Shown here: positions 22,903-33,602 of the stretch, piece after piece
Numbering within the stretch: the stretch's first letter is position 1
Layout of the letters: each line of letters begins with the position of its first letter
Source: a virus
Direction: 5' to 3' (one strand)
Virus record (IMG/VR): IMGVR_UViG_3300006332_000038
Span: 1-34,239 of that record
Length of the DNA stretch: 34,239 nucleotides
Position numbers and translations under genes: made by a program
The notes under the pieces: model-generated
The model's input: only the letters and a program-made list of their open reading frames with translations
Database searches by the model: none
Told to the model about the DNA's origin: nothing

Positions 22903-23736
22903 TCACACCCCACACATACCTTCACACTCACTTCCAAACATATCTACCTGGTCGGGATCGCCACCAAAGATGACTTCTGACAGTGGGGTCAAAGAGCGAT
23001 GAACATATCCAGGCGAATTACGGCCCCGTGCGGTCATGTCCCTAATGTCGTTATCAAATTCTACAGCTTTGCCAAATTCGTCAGGATGATTGTCTTGTAA
23101 CCATTTCCAGTAGCTATCGGAATGGTATGGACAATAGACGCAAGCGGATCGCTCGGGTTTAGGCAAACCAACGTCTTCAATAATTTTATAGCAATCTTCT
23201 CTAGTAATACCAAGATCGACCAGTGGAAACGAATTAGTACACCAGTTGAGTGGGGATGGCTTTAACCGCTCCACCTCATCAAGAGAAATCCCCATCATGC
23301 AACGAACCCGCTCTTTAACCCGTTGCCTCGGTTTATAACCCATGTGTTTACGGACCGCTTTAATGATGGGTTGAATCTTAAATTCCTGAGTACACTGCCT
23401 CATTAACATTCCTGTAGACCCGTCAGAGTTCTTGGTAAAAAGCGGAACACTAATAAATCGTTCCCCCGATCTCTGTCGGTCCACTACCCATTCACTTAAG
23501 CGACCTTTTTGGGCCACAATAACCTCAATCCCATGTGACTCTGCGTAAGTCTTTAAAACCTCTAAATACTCATACACCCACGCAGGTTCATCTCCAGTAT
23601 CAGCAAAGATCGCTACGTCGGGCTTTGGCACCCTGTCGTCCGTACACGCCAAGACCAACAACGCCGAACTCTGGACACCCGCACCTAATGACAAATAGGT
23701 GAAATCAAAATCCCCAGAAGTGGTATCAATCCTCAT
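22903..23736 (-). CDS. PAPS-reductase-like PP-loop ATPase
   Basis: From ATG 23736 the product has 277 residues (a TTG six bases upstream is less likely). It has the PP-loop variant SLGAGVQSS (16-24), ADTGDE (45-50), RQCTQEFKIQPI (113-124), a CVYC pair (Cys199/Cys202) and a C-terminal CEGMC (Cys271/Cys275). These fit the phosphoadenosine-phosphosulfate reductase / N-type ATP pyrophosphatase superfamily. Such phage proteins have unproven roles; sulfur transfer to nucleic acid or nucleotide is one idea. It overlaps the TerS-like gene by 11 bp. Confidence 0.8.
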   Translation of the reverse strand: MRIDTTSGDFDFTYLSLGAGVQSSALLVLACTDDRVPKPDVAIFADTGDEPAWVYEYLEVLKTYAESHGIEVIVAQKGRLSEWVVDRQRSGERFISVPLFTKNSDGSTGMLMRQCTQEFKIQPIIKAVRKHMGYKPRQRVKERVRCMMGISLDEVERLKPSPLNWCTNSFPLVDLGITREDCYKIIEDVGLPKPERSACVYCPYHSDSYWKWLQDNHPDEFGKAVEFDNDIRDMTARGRNSPGYVHRSLTPLSEVIFGGDPDQVDMFGSECEGMCGV

Positions 23737-24202
23737 CAACAATCTCGTAGTCAGCCTCGGGTAACTCTGTAGAGCTTTCGTGCTCCACCTTTTTCAAGGC
23801 GTTCAAGAAATCAGTTCCTATGCTCACAACGTTCAGCGTGGCGTCAGGCTTACCATACTCCTCGCGGTTATATCGCTCAGACATCCACCGTCGCTGTTCC
23901 GCTTTCAACCTGGCGGCTTGTACAGACCCGTCGTCCGCATCATCAACTATGGACAACGCTTCTTCAACAAGGTTAGACCCTATGATCTTTTTGTTGTCCT
24001 GCCACCTCTGCCAACGTTCTCCCGTCCTGTCGCTATGGAGCCATTTATAGAATACACCCATACTAACGTGCCCAATATCAGGCTCAATATTCTTTAACAA
24101 ACGTTCTACACTACGAACTTCCAAATACTTCTCAAAAATGACGGTTTCACCAAGTCCAGTAAGAGCCTTGTATGCCGCCTTAATAATCGGTCGTCCAGCC
24201 AC
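23726..24202 (-). CDS. terS: Probable terminase small subunit
   Basis: The 158-residue product starts with GTG behind a GAGGAG ribosome-binding site. It has an N-terminal HTH-like region and a central motif QAARLKAEQRRWMSERYNREEYGKP (95-119). This matches the ARLRVDxRKW...YGxK signature of Sf6-type small terminase subunits. It should recognise viral DNA for packaging. Unusually, it is on the opposite strand from terL and about 21 kb away within early genes. Confidence 0.7.
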   Translation of the reverse strand: MAGRPIIKAAYKALTGLGETVIFEKYLEVRSVERLLKNIEPDIGHVSMGVFYKWLHSDRTGERWQRWQDNKKIIGSNLVEEALSIVDDADDGSVQAARLKAEQRRWMSERYNREEYGKPDATLNVVSIGTDFLNALKKVEHESSTELPEADYEIVDED

Positions 24203-33324: not shown

Positions 33325-33540
33325 ATGTCGGAACTTGTGCAGTATCCTGAAAGCACTCCGTTGTGGATTGAATGTGATCTGTGCGAAGACTTCTGGTGTA
33401 CGTTCCATGACTGTCATGTTGCGGACTGCCCGTGTCCTGGGGTCGAGCAATTTATTACGTTTGGTGTAGACCCGTACAAGACTCCGAGGTCTGATCCGAA
33501 GGTCTTGGTAGCAATCGCGAGTCAACGGGGGGCGAGATAG
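33325..33540 (+). CDS. Small Cys/His-rich protein
   Basis: The 71-residue product has Cys at 17, 20, 25, 30, 35 and 37 and His at 28 and 31, so zinc binding is likely. It has no good ribosome-binding site. The end of the gene overlaps the first 13 bases of the tmRNA-like RNA. Function unknown. Confidence 0.6.
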   Translation: MSELVQYPESTPLWIECDLCEDFWCTFHDCHVADCPCPGVEQFITFGVDPYKTPRSDPKVLVAIASQRGAR

Positions 33541-33602
33541 GTTTCGACACCTCGTAGGCGTTGAGCTTGGGGTGGACGCCAGTTCGAGTCTGGCCGCCTC
33601 CA
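33528..33602 (+). ncRNA. tmRNA-like RNA: tRNA-like domain without mRNA-like domain
   Basis: This 75-nt sequence has a 7-bp acceptor stem (GGGGGCG 33528-33534 with CGCCTCC 33595-33601) including a G-U pair at the third position, and an A at the discriminator (33602). G3-U70 with A73 is the alanyl-tRNA identity. The tmRNA hallmark GGTTTCGAC is at 33540-33548. GGAC at 33574-33577 is followed by a normal T-arm (GCCAG-TTCGAGT-CTGGC). The long arm between (33548-33574) folds as 6 plus 4 bp with a two-base bulge. No tag reading frame or pseudoknots are present, and CCA is not encoded. It is far from a canonical tRNA because it lacks a D-stem. Confidence 0.75.

Follow-up and report, generated by a model that had tools for sequence, protein, structure and literature searches.

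TmRNAs that have kept the tRNA-like domain (TLD) and lost the tag are already known from one phage and from organelles. The phage precedent is the TLD-only tmRNA of mycobacteriophage DS6A (Mao 2009; PMC4131195, PMC11915505). In E. coli, tmRNA is strongly inhibited by a TLD-only molecule resembling that of DS6A, and this inhibition is independent of the chargeability of the RNA and is perhaps exerted via titration of SmpB (PMC4131195; PMC11915505). Tag-less tmRNAs also persist in mitochondria and plastids, the mitochondrial ones together with a targeted SmpB; those of mitochondria are thought to be helpful, not harmful (PMC11915505). Both the tag-less tmRNAs of jakobid and other mitochondria (RF02544) and the ~65-bp forms of Mallomonadaceae plastids (PMC11915505) retain the TLD without the tag frame. 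Full-length tmRNAs, including permuted ones, are likewise carried by phages as ssrA genes (Melnitz PMC9004378; SM1, BUCT628 and others), but these have kept the tag. For the tmRNA of H. pylori, G19-A20-C21 has been mutated as the SmpB-interaction site, the G-U wobble has been described as mandatory for charging, and loss of the resume codon is lethal (PMC2584231). In the part of that paper in which in vitro work is cited, resumption is given as mandatory for the dissociation of stalled ribosomes. No report of a wider phage class of TLD-only tmRNAs was found in the open-licence literature.

Here we describe such an RNA in a marine-type phage, the host of which is bacterial. The window, that is, the whole stretch of DNA analysed, is a 34,239-base IMG/VR virus record with SU10-type portal and major capsid genes.

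A tRNA-like domain without a tag

Positions 33528-33602 of the window are confirmed as a complete tmRNA TLD without a tag. The features of the locus are as follows.

33325..33540, + strand: Cys-rich 71-aa ORF upstream of the RNA; its TAG stop is RNA positions 11-13
33528..33602, + strand: mini-tmRNA, TLD only, 75 nt through the discriminator A73; matches RF00023 and is an island of conservation among relatives
33528..33534, + strand: 5' strand of the acceptor stem, GGGGGCG, with G3 at 33530; 7/7 pairs
33540..33548, + strand: D-loop motif GGTTTCGAC, read directly from the sequence; unchanged across 6 relatives
33546-33548, + strand: G19, A20 and C21, the SmpB-contact residues (site by PMC2584231)
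33549..33573, + strand: short P2 arm, ACCTC (33549-33553) with GGGGT (33569-33573) and a 15-nt loop; outer helix conserved, inner pairing not
33574-33577, + strand: GGAC linker
33578-33594, + strand: T arm, GCCAG-TTCGAGT-CTGGC; compensatory change of C-G to G-C in L028
33595..33602, + strand: 3' strand of the acceptor stem, CGCCTCC (U70 at 33599), and A73 at 33602, read directly from the sequence

An earlier note on this DNA had delimited a 75-nt TLD with both of its halves, and its coordinates were right to the base. In the Infernal check that it had proposed, the Rfam tmRNA model RF00023 (gathering score 47 bits) matches 33528-33602 above the gathering score, at 55.6 bits with an E-value of 2.3e-19 (cmscan); the window gives no further Rfam match at E<=1. 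The alignment takes in both ends of the model (positions 1 and 374) and comprises the 7-bp acceptor stem and the T arm. The middle of the model is skipped, bearing out the claim that the mRNA-like domain and the pseudoknots (PK1-PK4) are gone; the P2 arm occupies their place. G3-U70 (33530/33599), A73 (33602) and the D-loop motif are kept, as had been claimed. G3-U70 and A73 give the RNA its alanine identity, with all that recognition by AlaRS requires in place, and the D-loop carries UUCGAC with the SmpB-contact GAC. An anticodon arm is absent: a tRNA anticodon stem-loop has 5 bp and a 7-nt loop, and the arm found here has 5 bp and a 15-nt loop. TGC lies directly 3' of the discriminator A, and CCA is not encoded.

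Within the 25 nt that separate the D-loop motif from GGAC, there is no resume codon, tag reading frame or stop. The GTA in the arm loop is a chance occurrence that is not conserved in relatives, and the stop codons of the loop, considered as a mini-tag, were dropped because they are not conserved either. Since the tag and the resume codon were tested for and found absent, we file this RNA as a TLD-only tmRNA and not as a functional tmRNA. ARAGORN called neither a tRNA nor a tmRNA in the window, as one would expect where the tag is lacking. Thermodynamic folding of the RNA by itself is unremarkable (z -1.9), and the inner arm pairing, AGGC/GCTT, is not kept in relatives, in which the arm ranges from 12 to >60 nt. 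The evidence for the RNA is the covariance-model match, conservation and compensatory change, which together rule out a chance resemblance.

Compared with canonical one-piece tmRNA (RF00023), the window RNA shares the acceptor G3-U70, A73, the D-loop motif, the T arm and the start of P2, but measures ~75 nt instead of ~360 nt and is devoid of resume codon, tag and pseudoknots. In permuted tmRNA genes the 3' half comes first, whereas in the mini-tmRNAs (minis) the 5' half precedes the 3' half with a short arm in between. Two TLD halves joined by a short arm, in a phage-encoded RNA of ~60-90 nt, correspond to the CDS-less, DS6A type as published; the likeness lies in the phage-encoded TLD without an mRNA-like domain. 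Unlike the organellar genes, of which the mitochondrial ones are accompanied by an organelle-targeted SmpB, the window RNA is viral, lies on a contig without SmpB, and is expected to meet hosts with a full tmRNA.

Relatives of the window RNA and the wider phage class

Five related contigs carry an RNA 93-95% identical to the window copy; the DNA of their upstream ORF is 66-80% identical, and the downstream sequence is unalignable. ORF and RNA form a two-gene cassette, the ORF end being identical in the window, L028, L032, L043, L189 and L190. The Cys-rich ORF itself (33325-33540) has no Pfam or PHROG match. A check of relatives for compensatory change, also proposed in the earlier note, yielded two pairs: acceptor pair 5 is G5-C68 in the window and A-U in the relatives, and a T-stem pair changes from C-G to G-C in L028. 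All pairs (17/17) stay paired in the alignment of the relatives, which has only four distinct rows and a correspondingly weak shuffle control. Homologues of the Cys-rich ORF occur without the RNA in L272-L277. In L272-L276 the ORF homologue is present together with the downstream gene of L268/L269, and the empty site is ~90 bp shorter; this clean empty site makes the RNA an optional, compact insert. The window contig contains no SmpB gene, no sigma-70 promoter was found near the RNA, and the replication genes are on the opposite strand.

A wider class of minis emerged from scans with a pattern that leaves the acceptor unconstrained (TTCGAC, 10-40 nt, GGACG...GTTCRANTC). The first scan of viral contigs gave at least 119 loci. 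After a structural filter (7/7 standard acceptor pairs) and widened scans, at least 80 distinct minis were obtained on at least 115 loci, falling into at least 65 groups that share less than 85% identity; almost all of the minis lie in viral contigs. TTCGAC, GGACG and GTTCRANTC were fixed by the search design and are not counted as evidence of conservation; the acceptor, A73 and P2 were independent of the pattern in the first viral scans, and the genome scan and the last viral scan required TCCA. Among the matches listed, G3-U70 and A73 are present in 80/80 distinct minis. When the filter was relaxed to 6/7 pairs, five RNAs of the first set were without G3-U70, and on inspection these were not minis. 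Across the first set, reduced to 59 representatives, acceptor pairs 1-3 are constant and pairs 4-7 vary, with four, six and five pair types at pairs 4, 5 and 6, respectively. P2 differs greatly in sequence from one mini to the next, yet its outer helix has 5.4 bp on average; when 3' halves were exchanged between RNAs 200 times, the average was 1.8 bp and never exceeded 2.4. RNAalifold, run without a supplied structure, recovered P2 and the T stem, with double changes at 8/10 pairs.

Nearly all of the minis among the matches listed are 61-91 nt long. The statement in the earlier note that it knew of no tmRNA this small in a phage has to be corrected, both because DS6A had been published (PMC4131195, PMC11915505) and because the class found here is large and diverse and reaches down to 61 nt. 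DS6A is a single actinophage case, whereas the present class spans many phage lineages. The breadth and the uniform alanine identity of the phage minis appear undescribed; what is new comprises the many lineages, the alanine identity with covariation elsewhere in the RNA, the almost complete restriction to phages, the site that is occupied in some relatives and empty in others, and the examples in isolated phages of laboratory Streptomyces strains.

In each of the 29 mini contigs examined (29/29), some of which may be fragments, there is one mini over the cut-off, no longer tmRNA over the cut-off and no SmpB; the mini must therefore rely on the SmpB of the host. ORF clustering over 4 kb around 105 minis showed that no neighbour gene recurs in >4 RNA groups. 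Of the gene families that do recur next to minis, nearly all point in the same direction as the mini. In ~26 of 65 groups an upstream ORF stops no more than ~25 nt from the 5' end of the RNA, suggesting that the two are transcribed together and that RNase P releases the mini.

A similar pattern run over 84,980 species genomes gave 68 matches; nearly all of these are the 3' end of a full host tmRNA in which TTCGAC occurs by chance. Just three, L164 (Cellulosimicrobium), L167 (Mycobacterium MAG) and L185 (Bacillota MAG), pass as minis, and a full tmRNA is also present in the two host MAGs with L167 and L185. A host ssrA gene broken by integration, considered as a source of the minis, was rejected on this distribution. 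Unannotated minis occur in the isolated Streptomyces phages pSt2308, GiJojo, LuckySocke and BRock (the last with TTTGAC) and in the isolated Stenotrophomonas virus Jojan60. Minis have been overlooked since both ARAGORN and most annotation rely on a tag.

Possible roles in host ribosome rescue

We consider it probable that the window RNA, a phage TLD-only tmRNA, would be alanylated, would bind SmpB and would block host trans-translation. The architecture, conservation, alanine identity and wide phage distribution are as described above; the course from transcription and processing through charging and SmpB binding to an inhibitory outcome is predicted from sequence. The RNA would be co-transcribed with the upstream gene and excised by RNase P and 3' processing, after which a host enzyme would add CCA, and host AlaRS would charge the mini with alanine via G3-U70. 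Host SmpB and EF-Tu would bind it through the D-loop GAC and the acceptor/T arm. Once charged, the mini would gain access to ribosomes that have stalled on broken mRNA and would take over the nascent chain. With neither a resume codon nor a tag frame, it could not move translation to a new message, and it is therefore proposed to compete with and block host trans-translation during infection. Poisoning or modification of trans-translation, as first proposed in the earlier note, would fit the DS6A precedent and is plausible.

The published inhibition occurs with or without charging, so decoy action alone would leave the constant G3-U70 unexplained. The invariance of this pair implies that charging is under strong selection and that more than simple SmpB titration is involved. 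A charged mini could be carried by EF-Tu into a stalled ribosome, which it would trap once the peptide has been transferred. Such a trap and an untagged rescue would differ in the release of the nascent chain. What a phage would gain from blocking rescue is not obvious.

Untagged rescue is the main rival, and we regard it as rather unlikely. It holds that the alanylated RNA takes the nascent chain and, with a release or recycling activity of the host, frees ribosomes without tagging, allowing phage proteins and broken phage mRNAs to escape degradation. The invariant G3-U70, implying that charging matters, and the persistence of tag-less tmRNAs in mitochondria and plastids, in mitochondria with a targeted SmpB (PMC11915505), would both agree with it. 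However, a mini has neither resume codon nor stop, and the in vitro work, as cited in PMC2584231, has resumption as needed for dissociation; H. pylori does not survive without the resume codon (PMC2584231), and in E. coli a similar RNA inhibits and does not substitute (PMC4131195).

It is less likely still that the minis are tRNA-like RNAs with a use apart from trans-translation, such as titrating AlaRS/EF-Tu or supplying Ala-RNA to a phage enzyme. Alanine identity is indeed their most rigidly kept feature, and some minis in Streptomyces phages lie within tRNA clusters, but the features that have been kept are specific to a TLD (no anticodon arm, the D-loop GAC and a short P2) and not those of tRNA-Ala, and mini neighbourhoods hold no common partner gene. 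Quite improbable, in our estimate, is a role as processing punctuation, in which the tRNA-like fold would do no more than guide RNase P and 3' cleavage of a polycistronic phage transcript. The closeness of upstream ORF stops to the RNA and the co-directional neighbours would suit such a role, yet it leaves the invariant G3-U70, A73 and SmpB motif unexplained, as a plain tRNA would suffice. Least credible of all is that the RNA is left over from an ssrA attachment site or is a pseudogene in decay. Pieces of ssrA are indeed carried by phages that integrate, and a tyrosine integrase is found in 6/29 mini contigs, in two of them within ~1.3 kb of the mini (G021, G027). True attP forms (Peanam, LilSpotty), however, consist of the 3' half only, beside an integrase, whereas the minis keep both halves and 7/7 acceptor pairs with compensatory change. 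The window contig has no tyrosine integrase, in agreement with the note, and no serine resolvase, so that a remnant is rejected for the window and, given an integrase within ~1.3 kb on the contig, not fully for L076 and L119.

Returning to blocked trans-translation, we note that the upstream ORF stops inside the RNA, so a cut by RNase P would leave the ORF message non-stop. One could speculate, at long odds, that charged minis are a general device of phage takeover, recurring across lineages to capture or jam host rescue, and that in the lineage of the window, when RNase P cuts out the RNA, the upstream ORF becomes non-stop by an ArfA-like logic, its Cys-rich product accumulating only once trans-translation is blocked.

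Similar minis in dozens of unrelated phages suggest a shared way to jam or redirect host ribosome rescue. If minis do block or reroute trans-translation, ribosome rescue would be a target of many unrelated phages, with a 60-90-nt RNA as the weapon. As some minis belong to isolated phages of laboratory Streptomyces strains, the idea is open to direct test. The question of why the minis never lose their alanine identity separates a decoy from tag-less rescue; it is relevant, too, to the mitochondrial and plastid tag-less tmRNAs, themselves unexplained.

Other observations in the window and in phage records

At 22903-23742 the window carries an auxiliary metabolic gene, phosphoadenosine phosphosulfate reductase-like (PHROG 424). 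Four minis of 95-114 nt with bigger arms were found, and only four, despite scanning of gaps up to 71 (L223:7505-7617, L257:2416-2529, L232:889-997 and L222:5845-5939); they are possible intermediates between full and mini tmRNA. In phage Alone3 a degenerate mini (L199:577-656), with a poorly paired T stem and an altered D-loop, lies where the LuckySocke copy is intact, possibly a recent loss. GiJojo gene 44 (L196:1201-1443), annotated as a hypothetical protein, overlaps the mini and is unlikely to be a real CDS. The matches in SM1, BUCT628 and other isolates were rejected as minis, being permuted full tmRNAs. Permuted full-length tmRNA genes that are unannotated in the phage records are found at L191:1474-1773, L200:572-786, L201:572-825, L202:566-862 and L205:570-954, in SM1, BUCT628, QDWS595, Tunturi_5 and JWDelta, respectively.
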